Shown here: positions 1,967-7,638 of the stretch, piece after piece
How positions within the stretch are numbered: the stretch's first letter is position 1
Layout: every line of letters begins with the position of its first letter
Made by a program: the position numbers and the translations under genes
Notes under the pieces: generated by a model
Databases searched by the model: none
What the model saw: the letters and a program-made list of their open reading frames with translations, nothing else
Told to the model about the DNA's origin: nothing
From: an uncultured Collinsella sp.
Lineage (GTDB): Bacteria; Actinomycetota; Coriobacteriia; Coriobacteriales; Coriobacteriaceae
Direction: 5' to 3'
NCBI GenBank assembly: GCA_902490245.1
Contig: CABUDB010000036.1
Location: 1-10,608, forward strand
DNA length: 10,608 nt

Positions 1967-3748
1967 ATGCTGCTTACGCAAACGACAACGCCCGAGGACG
2001 TCAAGGCTCTCGACCGCGCCGAGCTTCCGCTGCTCTGCGGCGAGATCCGCCAGGCAATCCTCGAAAGCTCCGCCGCTGTCGGCGGACACGTTGCCCCCAA
2101 CCTGGGTGTCGTTGAGCTCACGGTCGCGCTCCATCGCGTGTTTAACTCCCCCACCGACAAAATTGTCTTTGACGTGTCGCACCAGACCTACGCCCACAAG
2201 GCGCTGACCGGGCGCGCGTACACCTATATCGACCCGGAGCGTTATGGTGAGGCTTCCGGCTTTGCCAATCCCGACGAGTCCGAGCATGACCTGTTTGCCA
2301 TGGGCCACACCTCGACCTCGGTGAGCTTGGGTTGCGGCCTTGCCCACGCCCGCGATCTGGCGGGCGACAGTTACAACGTCATTACCATCATTGGCGACGG
2401 TTCGCTTTCGGGCGGTCTGGCGTTTGAGGGCTTTAACAATGCCGCCGAGCTCGACAGCAACTTGATCATCGTCGTCAACGATAACGATCAGTCCATCGCC
2501 GAAAACCACGGTGGCCTCTATCGCAATCTGGCCGAGTTGCGCGCCAGCAACGGCACCTGTGAGCGCAACATTTTCCGCGCCATGGGACTCGACTACCGCT
2601 ATCTGGACGCCGGCAACGATGTGTTGGCCCTGGTCGACGCGTTGCAGGAGCTGCGCGATATCAATCATCCCATCGTGCTGCACGTCTCCACCGCAAAGGG
2701 CAAGGGCTTTGAGCCAGCCCAGAGCGACCCCGAGCGCTGGCATCATGTGGGTCCGTTTGACATGGCGACTGGGCGCAAGCTCTGCCCGGGCCATCCGAGC
2801 GAGCCTGCGCCGCGCACCTATGCCGATATTACGGGCGAGGCCCTGAGCGCTGCCATCGAGCGCGATCCGCAGGTTGTGGGCATCACGGCTGCCACGCCCT
2901 ACATCATGGGCTTTACACCCGAGCTTCGCGCCGCGGCAGGCAAGCAGTTTGTCGACGTGGGCATTGCCGAGGAACACGCCGTGACCTTTGCCACCGCGCT
3001 CGCCCGCTCGGGTGCCAAGCCAGTCTTTGGTGTGTACGGCACGTTTTTGCAGCGCGCCTACGACGAACTGTGGCACGACCTGTGCCTCAACGACGCCCCC
3101 GCAACCATCCTGGTATTTGGCGCGTCGATCTTTGGCACCACATCCGAGACGCACCTCTCGTTCTTTGATATTTCCATGCTGAGCGGTCTTCCCAACATGC
3201 ACTACTTGGCGCCGGCCTGTATGGAGGAATATCTGTCCATGCTGAGCTGGTCGCTCGATCACCGCGAGCATCCCGTGGCGATTCGCGTGCCGGGCATTGG
3301 CTTGGTAAGCCGCCCCGACTTGGCGCCTGCCGAGGACGCCGATTACGGCGCCGTTCATTACAACGTGGTGCGCCAGGGTCGCGACGTGGCCGTGCTCGCG
3401 CTTGGCGATTTCTTTGAGTTGGGCGAGCGCGTGGCAAACCGCTTGGCTGCCGAGTACGGCATCGAGGCCACGCTCGTCAACCCGCGCTATGCAACTGAGC
3501 TCGACCGTGAGTTCCTCGACAGCCTTGCCGCCGAGCATCGCGTTGTCGTCACTCTCGAGGACGGCATCTTGGACGGTGGCTGGGGCGAGCGTGTCGCGTG
3601 CTACTTGGCCTGCACGCCCGTGCGCACGCGCACCTTCGGCATCGCCAAGGGCTTCCCCGACCGCTACGACCCCAAAGAGTTGCTCGCTCAGAACGGCATG
3701 ACGGTCGAGAACATGGCCGCCGAAGCCGTAAGGCTACTCAACGAGTAA
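1967..3748 (+). CDS. dxs: 1-deoxy-D-xylulose-5-phosphate synthase-like TPP enzyme (short, divergent)
   Basis: This 593-residue protein matches DXS along its full length: TPP-binding domain, transketolase pyrimidine-binding domain and transketolase C-terminal domain. Canonical DXS joins pyruvate and glyceraldehyde-3-phosphate to DXP at the head of the MEP isoprenoid pathway and also feeds thiamine and pyridoxal synthesis. Kept features are GGH (His41), the SHQ motif (His72), the TPP motif GDG 143-145 to NDN 171-173, His259, the catalytic-type Glu335 in IAEEHAVTFA, FLQRAYD with Arg363, and Arg440 in AIR. Differences from E. coli DXS, aligned from memory: the linker after the TPP motif is about 30 residues shorter, and the DRAG...GADGQTH segment reads FGAS...GTTSETH (384-396). 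The latter loses the equivalents of Arg420 and Asp427, while His431 is kept (His396). It may be a true but atypical DXS or a paralogue with another acceptor. Start: ATG with GGAG at 1951-1954. It is monocistronic, with a terminator 2 nt after the stop. Confidence 0.82.
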   Translation: MLLTQTTTPEDVKALDRAELPLLCGEIRQAILESSAAVGGHVAPNLGVVELTVALHRVFNSPTDKIVFDVSHQTYAHKALTGRAYTYIDPERYGEASGFANPDESEHDLFAMGHTSTSVSLGCGLAHARDLAGDSYNVITIIGDGSLSGGLAFEGFNNAAELDSNLIIVVNDNDQSIAENHGGLYRNLAELRASNGTCERNIFRAMGLDYRYLDAGNDVLALVDALQELRDINHPIVLHVSTAKGKGFEPAQSDPERWHHVGPFDMATGRKLCPGHPSEPAPRTYADITGEALSAAIERDPQVVGITAATPYIMGFTPELRAAAGKQFVDVGIAEEHAVTFATALARSGAKPVFGVYGTFLQRAYDELWHDLCLNDAPATILVFGASIFGTTSETHLSFFDISMLSGLPNMHYLAPACMEEYLSMLSWSLDHREHPVAIRVPGIGLVSRPDLAPAEDADYGAVHYNVVRQGRDVAVLALGDFFELGERVANRLAAEYGIEATLVNPRYATELDREFLDSLAAEHRVVVTLEDGILDGGWGERVACYLACTPVRTRTFGIAKGFPDRYDPKELLAQNGMTVENMAAEAVRLLNE

Positions 3749-3749
3749 G

Positions 3750-3792
3750 AAAACCTCCGCAAGGAAAGCACCCCTGCGGAGGTTTTTATTTT
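3750..3792 (+). terminator. Rho-independent terminator of the DXS-like gene
   Basis: A perfect 12-bp stem (AAAACCTCCGCA at 3750-3761 pairing with TGCGGAGGTTTT at 3775-3786) encloses a 13-nt loop and runs into TTATTTT. It begins right after the TAA stop (3746-3748), so transcripts of the upstream gene should end here, before the repeat array. The A-tract before the stem would give the opposite strand a partial U-run as well. Confidence 0.92.
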
Positions 3793-3805
3793 CGCGGCGC
3801 GATTA

Positions 3806-3860
3806 TCTCGATCTGTAACATCTAGGGCCCGAATTCCCGTCTACCTGTTACAGATCTAGA
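3806..3860. repeat. Repeat unit 1 (imperfect inverted pair)
   Basis: The left arm TCTCGATCTGTAACA (3806-3820) pairs with the right arm TGTTACAGATCTAGA (3846-3860) at 14 of 15 positions. Relative to units 2 and 3, the A of the left arm is G and the matching T of the right arm is C, a compensatory pair of changes. The intervening 25 nt contain GGGCCC and GAATTC palindromes. Confidence 0.75.
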
Positions 3861-3884
3861 CAAACCGTCTTAGTCCCTGACCTT

Positions 3885-3943
3885 TGTCTCAATCTGTAAC
3901 AGATAGAGACCTTTTGGCCGTCTAACTGTTACAGATTGAGACA
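3885..3943. repeat. Repeat unit 2 (perfect 18-bp inverted pair)
   Basis: TGTCTCAATCTGTAACAG (3885-3902) is repeated exactly in reverse complement at 3926-3943, with a 23-nt interval between. The left copy extends to GAGAC at 3906-3910, making a near-perfect 25-bp palindrome by itself. This is the best-preserved unit and a sensible consensus. Confidence 0.85.
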
Positions 3944-3966
3944 TTCGAATCCCCCTGAAGAGAAAA

Positions 3967-4021
3967 TCTCAATCTGTAACAGTTACTCGGCAAAAATGGC
4001 TGCAGATGTTACAGATTGAGA
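3967..4021. repeat. Repeat unit 3 (perfect 15-bp inverted pair)
   Basis: TCTCAATCTGTAACA (3967-3981) is repeated exactly in reverse complement at 4007-4021, with 25 nt between. The inner halves of both copies (GTTACTC and GCAGA) have diverged while the outer arms are intact. That suggests the outer arms, or the pairing between them, are what is conserved. Confidence 0.8.
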
Positions 4022-4023
4022 CA

Positions 4024-4140
4024 AAACAGTAAGGCATGCCGTTGCATCGGTCAAAACCACCACGAAGGTGCCTGTGAACCTGTCCCTTTTTGGTAGGTTG
4101 AATAACCCATAAGGTAAGTATGTTTCTGAGTTATTTCGTG
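4024..4140. other. Non-coding stretch upstream of the transporter promoter
   Basis: No gene is seen here. The stretch includes a C/T-rich segment with CACCACGAAGGTG followed by two CCTGT words and a TTTTTGG tract (about 4057-4097). It resembles a worn intergenic repeat rather than coding DNA. Just before the -35 box, AATAACC (4101-4107) and GTTATT (4130-4135) form a weak inverted repeat that could be an operator half-site pair. Both readings are tentative. Confidence 0.3.
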
Positions 4141-4213: not shown

Positions 4214-5209
4214 ATGAGCAAGAACCTCTCCCAGCAGGTCGTTCTCGACCGCCGCGGCTTCGTCGCCGCCACCTTCGCAACCGTCGCCGGCCTTGGTCTT
4301 GCCGGCTGCTCCGACACTAGCGCCGAGGCCGACAAGGGTTCCGCCGCCGGCTCTTCCAAGAGCTCCGAAGATGCCGAGGCTTCCACCACGCTCGACGCTA
4401 AGGCATTCGACAAGCTCGTCGACAACGGCCCCAAGGCCGATGACGATGCCATCGCCGCCAGCACCTGGGCCACGGCCGTCAAGGACGCCGGTGTCTTTAA
4501 GATCGGTGGCGTTCAGACCTCCACGCTCTTCTCCCTCCTCAACGAGAAAGACGGTCAGACCCGCGGCTTCGACGCCGGTATCGCACAGCTTCTGTCCAAC
4601 TACATTCTGGGCGAGAACAAGGTCGAGATCACCCAGGTGACCTCGGACACGCGCGAGTCCGTCCTGCAGAACGGCCAGGTCGACGCCGTCTTTGCCACCT
4701 ACACCATCACTGACGATCGCAAGAAGCTCGTCTCCTTTGCCGGTCCCTACTACTACACCCAGCAGGCCATCCTGGTGCTCGCCGACAACGACGACATCAA
4801 GAGCGTCGACGACCTGGCCGACAAGAACGTCGCCGTCCAGTCCGGCTCCAACGGCCCTGCCATCCTGGAGGAGCTCGCTCCCAAGGCCAGCCAGCAGGAG
4901 TTCAAGACCGACGAGGAGGCCCGCCAGGCACTTCAGCAGGGCCGCGTTGACGCCTACGTCATCGACAACAACATGCAGCAGAGCGCCCTGGTCCGCGAGC
5001 CCGGTAAGTACAAGATTGCCGGCAAGCCCTTCGGCAGCAAGGAGCCCTATGGCATCGGCCTGCCGCTCGATTCCGACGGCGTCGCCTTCGTCAACGACTT
5101 CCTTAAGAAGATTGAGGACGACGGCACCTGGACCGAGCTGTGGCAGATCTGCATCGGCGACCGCACGGGCGACACCAATGTTCCCGAGCTGCCCGAAATC
5201 GGCGCCTAG
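4214..5209 (+). CDS. gluB: Glutamate/polar amino acid ABC transporter, lipoprotein substrate-binding protein
   Basis: This 331-residue extracellular solute-binding protein (family 3) would deliver an amino acid to the permease pair encoded next. The N-terminus has a twin arginine (DRRGF, residues 12-16), a hydrophobic stretch and a lipobox LAGC. Cys32 is the predicted lipidation site, so the protein is anchored on the outer face of the membrane and may be exported folded by Tat. A Ser/Ala/Glu/Lys-rich linker (33-55) leads to the two-lobed domain (about 60-310). The segment around VDAVFATYTITDDRKKLVSFAGPYYY is characteristic of glutamate-type (GluB-like) binding proteins. The family and the GluD-type permease nearby suggest glutamate, possibly with aspartate or glutamine, but specificity cannot be read from sequence. 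It is the first gene after the promoter and is separated from the permeases by a terminator-like hairpin. The ATG is preceded by AAAGGTG. Confidence 0.87.
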   Translation: MSKNLSQQVVLDRRGFVAATFATVAGLGLAGCSDTSAEADKGSAAGSSKSSEDAEASTTLDAKAFDKLVDNGPKADDDAIAASTWATAVKDAGVFKIGGVQTSTLFSLLNEKDGQTRGFDAGIAQLLSNYILGENKVEITQVTSDTRESVLQNGQVDAVFATYTITDDRKKLVSFAGPYYYTQQAILVLADNDDIKSVDDLADKNVAVQSGSNGPAILEELAPKASQQEFKTDEEARQALQQGRVDAYVIDNNMQQSALVREPGKYKIAGKPFGSKEPYGIGLPLDSDGVAFVNDFLKKIEDDGTWTELWQICIGDRTGDTNVPELPEIGA

Positions 5210-5347: not shown

Positions 5348-6007
5348 ATGAGTCTCTCCGAGCTCTGGTCGCTCTATGGCCAGAACTACATTGACGCGCT
5401 GCTCGCAACCTGGGGCATGACGCTTGAGTCGTTTGCCATCGCCATGGTGCTGGCCGTCGCCGTCACCGTGATGCGCGTGTCGCCGCTCAAGCCGCTGCGC
5501 GTCTTTGGCGACCTGTATGTCCAGGTCTTCCGTAACATCCCCGGCATTGCGTTGCTCATCATCGTCGTCTACGCATTGCCGCCGCTCAAGGTCGTCCTGC
5601 CCTATCGCACCTGCGTTATCGTCGCCACAGTGCTCTTGGGTTCTGCCTTTGGCTCCGAGAACTTTATGAGCGGCATCAACACCGTCGGCGTCGGCCAGGT
5701 GGAAGCCGCCCGCTCGCTGGGCATGAGCTTCAACCGCATCCTCGCCAAGATCGTGATTCCGCAGGCACTGCGCTCGAGCGTGCTGCCCATGACCAACCTC
5801 TTTATCGCCGTCATGCTCACCACCGCGCTCGGCAGTCAGGTGCCGCTTAAGCCCCAGGAGCTCACCGGCGTGGTGAGCTATATCAACACGCGCTCGCTCG
5901 GCGGCGTCGCCGCGTTCTTTATCTCGGCGCTCGGCTACCTGGGCACAGCCTTTGTGGTGAGCCACATTGGCAACTACATCGATAAGAAGGTGAGGATCCT
6001 CCGATGA
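5348..6007 (+). CDS. gluC: Amino acid ABC transporter permease (GluC-like)
   Basis: This 219-residue integral membrane protein is of the His/Glu/Gln/Arg family and forms half of the translocation pore. About five hydrophobic helices are visible, starting near residues 20-40. The cytoplasmic EAA loop that docks onto the ATPase is clear: INTVGVGQVEAARSLGMS, then IVIPQALR (about residues 110-138). The FRNIPGIALLIIVVY segment near 61-75 matches the FRGTP-type segment of polar amino acid permeases. A strong GGGAGG lies 5 nt before the ATG. The 3' end overlaps the next permease by ATGA (6004-6007), implying translational coupling and a heterodimeric pore. Confidence 0.88.
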   Translation: MSLSELWSLYGQNYIDALLATWGMTLESFAIAMVLAVAVTVMRVSPLKPLRVFGDLYVQVFRNIPGIALLIIVVYALPPLKVVLPYRTCVIVATVLLGSAFGSENFMSGINTVGVGQVEAARSLGMSFNRILAKIVIPQALRSSVLPMTNLFIAVMLTTALGSQVPLKPQELTGVVSYINTRSLGGVAAFFISALGYLGTAFVVSHIGNYIDKKVRILR

Positions 6008-6837
6008 GCAAGCACTCCTCCCCCGCGCTCACCATGCGCGATGCGCTCTACGAGGCTCCCGGCCCCAAGATGCGCGCCAAGATTCGCATCGGCACCGCCA
6101 TCTCGCTTGTTGCCGTCGCCGCGCTCGCTGCCCTCGTGCTGCAGCGCTTTTATGTGACCGGTCAGCTTTCGGTCCACTATTGGTATTTCTTTACGCACCT
6201 CACCACCTGGAAGTTCCTGCTTGCCGGCTTTGAGGGCACCGTTAAAGTCGCACTCACCGCCGGCGCCATCGCGCTGGTGCTCGGCCTTGCCCTTATGCTC
6301 GGTCGCACCAGCGACATTAAGCCGCTGCAGCTGGTCTGCCGCGTGCTCACCGATTTCTTCCGCGGCGTGCCGAGCCTTCTGTTCATCTACTTCTTCTTTT
6401 TGGTGCTGCCCCAGTACAAGATTGCGCTGCCGTCGTTTTGGATGCTCACGCTTCCCGTCGCGCTCGCCGCAGCCGGTGTACTGGCCGAAATCTTCCGTGC
6501 CGGCGTCAACGCCGTACCGCGCGGCCAGGTCGAGGCGGCCCAGGCACTCGGTCTCTCCAAAGCTAAAATCACCTTTAAAATCGTCCTGCCGCAGGCTATT
6601 CGGTTTATCATTCCGTCGTTGATTTCGCAGCTTGTGGTCGTCGTCAAAGACACCACCGTCGCCTACGTGGTGAGCTACCCCGACCTCATGCAAAATGCCC
6701 GCGTGCTCATTACCAACTACGATGCCCTCGTGTCGGTCTACCTGGTGATCGCGGTCATCTATATCCTCATCAACGTCGCGATCAACAAGGCCGCTGTCTA
6801 CGTTTCGCACAAGACCGGCGCGACCATCATCCGCTAA
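6004..6837 (+). CDS. gluD: Amino acid ABC transporter permease (GluD-like)
   Basis: This is the 277-residue second pore subunit. It is longer than GluC because of a hydrophilic N-terminal extension of about 30 residues containing YEAPGPK, a feature shared with actinobacterial GluD proteins. The first helix (about 29-46) is followed by a periplasmic segment and the five-helix core. FFRGVPSLLFIYFFF (about 118-132) and the EAA loop VPRGQVEAAQALGLSKAKI...VLPQAIR (about 171-199) are both intact, and KDTTVAYVVSYPDL follows as in GluD-type permeases. The ATG overlaps the gluC stop. GAGGA at 5992-5996, inside gluC, supplies the ribosome site. The ATPase gene follows after 36 nt. Confidence 0.88.
   Translation: MSKHSSPALTMRDALYEAPGPKMRAKIRIGTAISLVAVAALAALVLQRFYVTGQLSVHYWYFFTHLTTWKFLLAGFEGTVKVALTAGAIALVLGLALMLGRTSDIKPLQLVCRVLTDFFRGVPSLLFIYFFFLVLPQYKIALPSFWMLTLPVALAAAGVLAEIFRAGVNAVPRGQVEAAQALGLSKAKITFKIVLPQAIRFIIPSLISQLVVVVKDTTVAYVVSYPDLMQNARVLITNYDALVSVYLVIAVIYILINVAINKAAVYVSHKTGATIIR

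Positions 6838-6873: not shown

Positions 6874-7638
<765 letters not shown>

Follow-up and report, generated by a model that had tools for sequence, protein, structure and literature searches.

Arrays of geometry-constrained half-site pairs at gene boundaries in the genus Collinsella

Between two genes of an uncultured Collinsella lies a short DNA motif repeated at strikingly regular distances, and the question it raises is what the regularity is for. The window analysed here, the whole stretch of 10,608 nucleotides, had been described in a first-pass annotation as holding six copies of CTGTWACAG, centred at 3817, 3849, 3898, 3930, 3978 and 4010, with spacings of 32, 49, 32, 48 and 32 bp. These centres and spacings are right. 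At no more than one mismatch the motif matches six times in the window, always inside 3813-4014, compared with 1.14 ± 1.03 matches (maximum 5) in shuffled windows (n = 200). There are indeed six sites, yet they are not alike: the first and the last each carry one mismatch (CTGTAACAT and ATGTTACAG), orientation alternates, and each site is the inner part of an arm of 16 bp. Since the sites alternate in orientation and sit within these longer arms, the units are three dyads. Each is 57 bp long, with two inverted 16-bp arms of consensus RTCTCRATCTGTAACA and its complement flanking an interior of 25 bp (Table 1). The alternation of 32 and 49 bp then follows from the position of the nine-base core within the arm, and the period of about 80 bp holds at this locus, with unit-to-unit steps of 81 and 80 bp.

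Table 1. Features of the array and of its surroundings in the window.
Feature	Position	Strand	Details
Upstream neighbour, DXP-synthase/transketolase-like protein	1967..3748	+	PF13292, PF02779, PF02780
Inverted repeat, 15-bp arms, then T-rich	3750..3786	+	likely terminator of upstream gene
Unit 1	3805..3861	.	arms 3805-3820, 3846-3861; interior 3821-3845
Linker 1	3862..3885	.	24 bp, free sequence, A/T at both ends
Unit 2	3886..3942	.	arms 3886-3901, 3927-3942; interior 3902-3926
Linker 2	3943..3965	.	23 bp
Unit 3	3966..4022	.	arms 3966-3981, 4007-4022; interior 3982-4006
Downstream neighbour, solute-binding protein of amino-acid-type ABC transporter	4214..5209	+	PF00497
Two ORFs 3' of the solute-binding protein gene	5348-6007, 6004-6837		presumably transporter permease, by position and look
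ABC transporter ATPase	6874-7638		PF00005

The inverted repeat behind the DXP-synthase-like gene is likely its terminator and distinct from the array; a simple terminator scan returns only a shorter stem there, on the minus strand. At 4053-4091, beside the array, stands a REP-like repeat (AAAACCACCACAAAGGTGCCTGTCCCC...TTTGTGGTGG), which is probably a Collinsella repeat in its own right. It also occurs beside several other arrays (L018, L138 and more) and forms a hairpin in L138.

The geometry of the units was followed through G005, a related genome consisting of one contig, which was pieced together from 20-kb segments and scanned with a half-site matrix. It contains 94 half-sites scoring at least 15, in 21 clusters, 18 of which hold two or more. 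The score distribution is bimodal, with 89 matches at 22 or more, 6 at 13-21 and 35 at 9-12, and the shuffled genome gives 8 matches above 9 on one strand. Arm starts lie 41 bp apart inside a unit and 39 or 40 bp apart between units: among half-sites above 9, plus-minus starts are separated by 41 bp in 41 cases and minus-plus starts by 39 or 40 bp in 27, with seven further close pairs at 9, 32, 38 or 42 bp. One to five units stand in register in G005, mostly two or three elsewhere. Genome G004 has 42 units at two mismatches and the same 42 at three. In a scan permitting 24-26 bp, the interior measures exactly 25 bp in 421 of 425 units. Steps between units outside G005 are 80 (129 cases), 81 (99), 79 (6), 78 (1) and 235 bp (1), that is, 80 or 81 in 228 of 236; all 26 steps within G005 fall on 80 (17) or 81 (9). 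Interior and step counts both include overlapping loci and related strains.

The constant distance within each pair, despite differing bases between the arms, thus extends well past the window. From 209 distinct perfect-arm interiors, a greedy pick keeps 64 that differ by more than 7 of 25 positions in either orientation. Most units were found through exact arm cores, which biases arm conservation upward; an alignment of 16 strains anchored on the transporter gene covers one locus and is free of this bias. It has no indel inside the three-unit array. Mean diversity in these strains is 0.017 for the core of the arm, 0.064 for its outer part and 0.034 for the flanking A/T positions, against 0.112 in the linkers, 0.216 in the interiors and 0.180 in the central triplet. 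The last value is raised by an exchange in unit 3; in 26 groups of a larger, biased set it is 0.022. The interior of unit 1 is strongly different in two strains (L128 and L134), unit 2 ends its interior in CTAAC or CCAGA depending on the strain, and in unit 3 the entire interior is swapped between a GTTACTCGGCAAAAAYGGCTGCAGA type and a GKTAGAACCCATTTCCTCGTCTAMC type while the flanks stay the same. Altogether, interior lengths, unit steps and the indel-free alignment lend good support to the selection on geometry proposed from the window.

Where do such units occur? When genome contigs were scanned for TCTGTAACA followed after 20-30 bases by TGTTACAGA, at least 120 stretches matched. Among the 80 matches listed, 69 are from Collinsella, nearly all with the exact length of 43 bp, and 11 are from other taxa, all of another length and chance-like. 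Perfect units are present in 23 of 43 Collinsella genomes, with 18-47 in each of 22 carriers and one in G037, and are lacking in the other 20. Across the class, at up to two mismatches in 396 genomes, 21 hold 38-67 units and five hold a single match. A reversed control pattern gives single matches in four of the 396, so single matches are at chance level, barring those inspected. The dispersed intergenic copies looked for in the genome and in Coriobacteriia are therefore many in the Collinsella carriers and at control level elsewhere in the class. A solute-binding protein 97-99% identical to that of the window is found in 21 of 43 genomes, and all 21 carry units somewhere; the array is not absent from close relatives, nor was the motif seen there without its fixed spacing. 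The 22nd carrier, G034, lacks a close match to this protein, which in other genomes matches at 62-68% (19 genomes) or only distantly (two). The close protein matches make the C. aerofaciens group the most likely home of the window.

Single units outside the main carrier group were found in G019, G037 and G038. Those of G019 and G038 lie upstream of clpB and have a changed right arm; the DNA around them is 87% identical to G005 over 371 bp and 91% over 1,551 bp, respectively. The unit of G037 has intact arms within a segment 93% identical to G005 over 249 bp. These identities suggest that the three units moved by transfer along with adjacent DNA. A phage origin was rejected: among 16 viral stretches, only L275 has two true units, and it aligns at 88% with a chromosomal locus of G005 (363 kb); the other 15 are of a different length except L281, which is without the outer arm sequence. 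In the first 400 kb of G026, a unit-free genome, no analogous arrays with other arms were found; three families of inverted pairs shown from it consist of near-identical repeats and have a different architecture. That region (L291-L310) also has repeated loci in which several distinct long inverted repeats (GGTGGCATAG, CGAATGATTG and CAAGGTATTGC families) stand near one another.

In the consensus built from 109 non-redundant units, an A-tract marks the centre, with TAG and CTA about ten bases away and G/C-rich blocks in between; then come the arms and, at about 30, A/T. Outside the arms, A/T is periodic at 10.0-10.25 bp, with an amplitude of 6.39 against 1.80 ± 0.93 in shuffles, none of 500 reaching it; a second, weaker peak lies near 7.25-7.5 bp (0.02-0.03). 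Extended half-site motifs next to the arms, as opposed to bending signals of their own, may account for part of this period. At the freely varying arm positions of the same 109 units, pairing is close to or below expectation (0.54 against 0.50 at ±23, 0.37 against 0.50 at ±28); position ±22 shows a slight excess, 0.92 against 0.88, from two double changes. Lacking covariation, the arms look like duplex half-sites and not like a stem. The interior G/C blocks are less self-complementary than shuffles (156 against 193.5 ± 10.8), which together with the arms indicates that a stem is not selected, possibly because long perfect palindromes are avoided. Compared with linkers, interiors show no clear excess of A/T- or G/C-preserving substitutions, on few events: in the G/C blocks such substitutions make up 0.11 of all changes against 0.15, although 0.62 against 0.46 of transversions.

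The reading we favour, at about an even chance of being correct, is that the arrays are binding sites for a putative DNA-bending protein, with an architectural role and not that of transporter operators. Each unit would be a duplex site for a sequence-specific protein that touches both 16-bp half-sites, inverted and some four helical turns from one another, and puts a bend into the intervening DNA. Sets of one to five units in G005, and mostly of two or three elsewhere, could then build a nucleoprotein array in register, and the arrays, standing at gene boundaries in chromosomes of the Collinsella aerofaciens group, might serve as boundary, topology or nucleoid-organising sites. This reading draws on the fixed geometry, on half-sites that are constrained yet do not covary as a stem would, on the A/T phasing and the A-tract centre, and on the dispersed placement of the arrays irrespective of promoters.

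Another explanation, possible if somewhat doubtful, is a mobile or selfish intergenic repeat of the REPIN, BIME or MITE-like kind whose spread would date to the ancestor of the C. aerofaciens group and which no longer moves, its arms kept alike by copy exchange. Dispersed intergenic copies of alternating orientation agree with it, as do the single copies in three other Collinsella within stretches resembling G005. So does the exchange of interiors: among 590 unit pairs with both flanks similar, which are not independent of one another, 93 differ at 10 or more of 25 interior positions, and segments thus reassort at the arms. Against mobility speaks that the arms are intact while the interiors are near unrelated.

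Arrays also come and go in blocks between strains. Of 145 arrays outside G005, 9 have a short flank, 25 no flank match and 18 flanks that are non-adjacent in G005. The remaining 93 could be mapped, 81 of them to positions where G005 has at least one unit and 12 to positions where it has none; related strains and overlapping loci are counted repeatedly here, and the 81 are non-independent evidence against the mobile repeat. Ten of the 12 empty-site alignments (L026 and L051 left out) show block differences with ragged ends. L018 alone offers a clean empty site, bordered on either side by AAAACCACCACA; this short direct repeat is ambiguous but would suit a mobile element. In the other nine no target-site duplication was found by eye. 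The arrays are, in sum, geometry-constrained duplex half-site pairs, kept at most mapped positions and sometimes lost.

A Y1/RAYT transposase, which the first-pass annotation proposed to look for, is present: Y1_Tnp (PF01797) occurs in 37 of 43 genomes, including all 22 carriers and G037, but also 14 of the 20 genomes without units. Its two genes in G005 (760 and 881 kb), the only ones searched for a neighbouring arm, have none in their flanks. Both lie within 468-1050 kb, which is free of half-site clusters, as is the stretch from 2050 kb round to 364 kb except for a weak single half-site at 2262 kb. The gene at 760 kb has a GGGGACAGACT-type repeat alongside. On the G005 genes, RAYT/REP was rejected as the source. 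REP/RAYT systems combine a RAYT gene flanked by two inverted repeat copies, stem-loops with compensatory changes, dispersed intergenic copies in alternating regular clusters, and usually more than 100 copies per genome. The arrays share the dispersed clusters; the G005 genes have no such flanking copies, ±23 and ±28 show no compensation in the 109 units, and each of 21 carriers has 38-67 units, although counting half-sites brings G005, with 94, near the 100-copy mark. The earlier comparison with a REP/BIME-like element accordingly stands for the dispersed, BIME-like layout and is not supported for REP/RAYT membership. MITEs are copies of a single sequence that ends in terminal inverted repeats and is flanked by a target-site duplication; the units, with their unrelated interiors, do not fit this.

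Several known systems nevertheless resemble the arrays in part. BIMEs are REP arrays reported to bind IHF or gyrase, with a protein-binding and topology role proposed (PMC2817692). They share with the Collinsella arrays an intergenic position, regularly spaced sites, alternating orientation and mosaic reassortment. The arms described here differ in having no stem covariation, no GTAG-type head and no copy at the G005 RAYT-type genes, and the arrays in their number of units, about 40-67 per carrier, and in a fixed 25-bp, free-sequence interior with an A-tract centre. REPINs, which are inverted REP doublets, are built in a similar way, a spacer of lower conservation being flanked by conserved arms in inverted orientation; in Collinsella the interiors are unrelated between copies, the arms form no decay series and there is no REP stem. 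In the neisserial NIME/dRS3 elements, short inverted repeats delimit the segments of mosaic intergenic arrays, a likeness that ends at segment length, nearly fixed in Collinsella, and at the unrelated repeat and taxa. AraC-type sites such as those of RhaS/RhaR pair long half-sites in inverted orientation, each half-site having two conserved blocks, as here, whereas Collinsella has arrays, a 25-bp interior and a placement off promoters. G005 also holds a second hairpin family, AGTTGCGGTGAAATAGGGACTGTTT with its complement (L153-L268; for example at 152746, 247633 and 389869). Its 30 clusters, 14 of them shown, are mostly single stem-loops with an arm spacing of 57 bp, and by eye the stems seem to vary in a compensatory manner.

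An unlikely variant of protein binding would be a site-specific bacterial chromatin, in which a putative Collinsella protein wraps array DNA in a continuous phased superhelix, each 80.4-bp unit taking up eight turns of about 10.05 bp. Selection would then hold geometry and A/T phase, and the sequence between contacts would be free and exchangeable in cassettes.

A cooperative operator array for a transcription factor with a broad regulon is quite improbable. Paired half-sites at fixed spacing are what such a factor would use, at least one called gene start faces 11 of the 18 G005 arrays, and the neighbours include transporters, glycosidases and regulators. Yet the arrays occupy convergent, tandem and divergent gaps, and 7 of 18 lie between convergent genes, against a background of 160 in 1142 gaps 60-1500 bp long (P 0.008; P 0.023 without a G005-specific case), a modest excess obtained with a home-made codon-usage gene caller. 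A Pfam scan covered the three window proteins and 26 G005 neighbours (28 of 36 flank positions), two of the 26 without a match. No common function or single pathway was found among these 26, which comprise GDSL lipase-like, oxidoreductase, DEAD helicase, kinase-like, Nramp, EF-Tu, GH1 glycosidase, LacI and M16 peptidase proteins, a phosphomethylpyrimidine kinase and a carbohydrate phosphorylase. The arrays are thus not confined to sites upstream of promoters of functionally related genes.

The window locus itself argues against an operator of the adjacent transporter, a role left unsupported by the convergent gaps, the mixed neighbours and an interposed gene. In G005 the array (cluster 9) has kept its place behind the DXP-synthase-like gene, at the 3' end, while an iron alcohol dehydrogenase gene stands between it and the transporter; in two named strains (L038 and L074) about 20-80 bp separate the alcohol dehydrogenase gene from a three-unit array. 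This arrangement makes a transporter operator unlikely. The same gene stands beside the transporter in L126 (G005), L130 and L143. In the set anchored on the transporter (the window and 21 loci, n = 22), three units are seen in 16 and two units in two; in a further three the fetched flank contains the dehydrogenase gene, and one (L133) is without an array. By genome, 17 of the 21 transporter-matched ones show two or three units at the locus in the fetched stretch, and in three the dehydrogenase gene hides or displaces the array within 1.5 kb. In L133, from genome G007, the array between the DXP-synthase-like gene and the transporter has been lost, and in its place is a remnant that looks like the beginning of the dehydrogenase gene.

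Along the G005 chromosome, a mean-distance estimate of origin/terminus bias, made by hand, is non-significant. Arrays about 5 kb apart recur (L042 and L009, about 5.0 kb; G004 at 1.392, 1.397 and 1.402 Mb; G005 at 1.414 and 1.419 Mb), some with similar interiors, and the two of G005 each follow a GH1 glycosidase gene, as if co-duplicated. A 364-codon ORF (L207 3742-4836; G005 1083742-1084836) stands between two arrays, no more than about 10 bases from each, and has no Pfam or PADLOC match.

A nucleic-acid hairpin serving RNA processing, termination or cruciform formation is very unlikely: as single-stranded DNA, all three units fold better than any of their 200 shuffles (z -3.9, -9.6 and -6.6), but this follows from the arms being inverted, and against a hairpin stand the uncompensated arm positions, the poorly self-complementary interiors, the separate likely terminator already 5' of the array, and an Rfam search giving no family at gathering threshold in the window (16 matches of another scan fall far below the cut-offs and are mostly eukaryotic microRNA hairpins).

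The DNA-bending reading has its own counterpoints. Exchange between units could keep the arms alike without selection, every carrier has a Y1_Tnp gene, as a mobile element would lead one to expect, and arrays are sometimes lost, in G007 at the window locus and also at other loci. As to proteins that might organise the DNA, the histone fold (PF00808), HU/IHF (PF00216) and Lsr2 (PF11774) models each match none of the 43 Collinsella genomes, with positive controls. The actinobacterial IHF model NF041260 matches 42 of 43, the exception being a carrier, G033. None of the four distinguishes carriers from the remaining genomes. Coriobacteriia are stated in one study to have an HU clade (PMC5683647); this statement either conflicts with the PF00216 result or concerns other genera.

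The arrays belong to a genus in whose genomes no HU/IHF (PF00216) or Lsr2 homologue was found. A search of titles and abstracts, with subscription papers and preprints outside its scope, returned no description of the arrays. They separate sequence from geometry unusually cleanly, and represent a dispersed, position-conserved DNA system in a group of human gut commensals.
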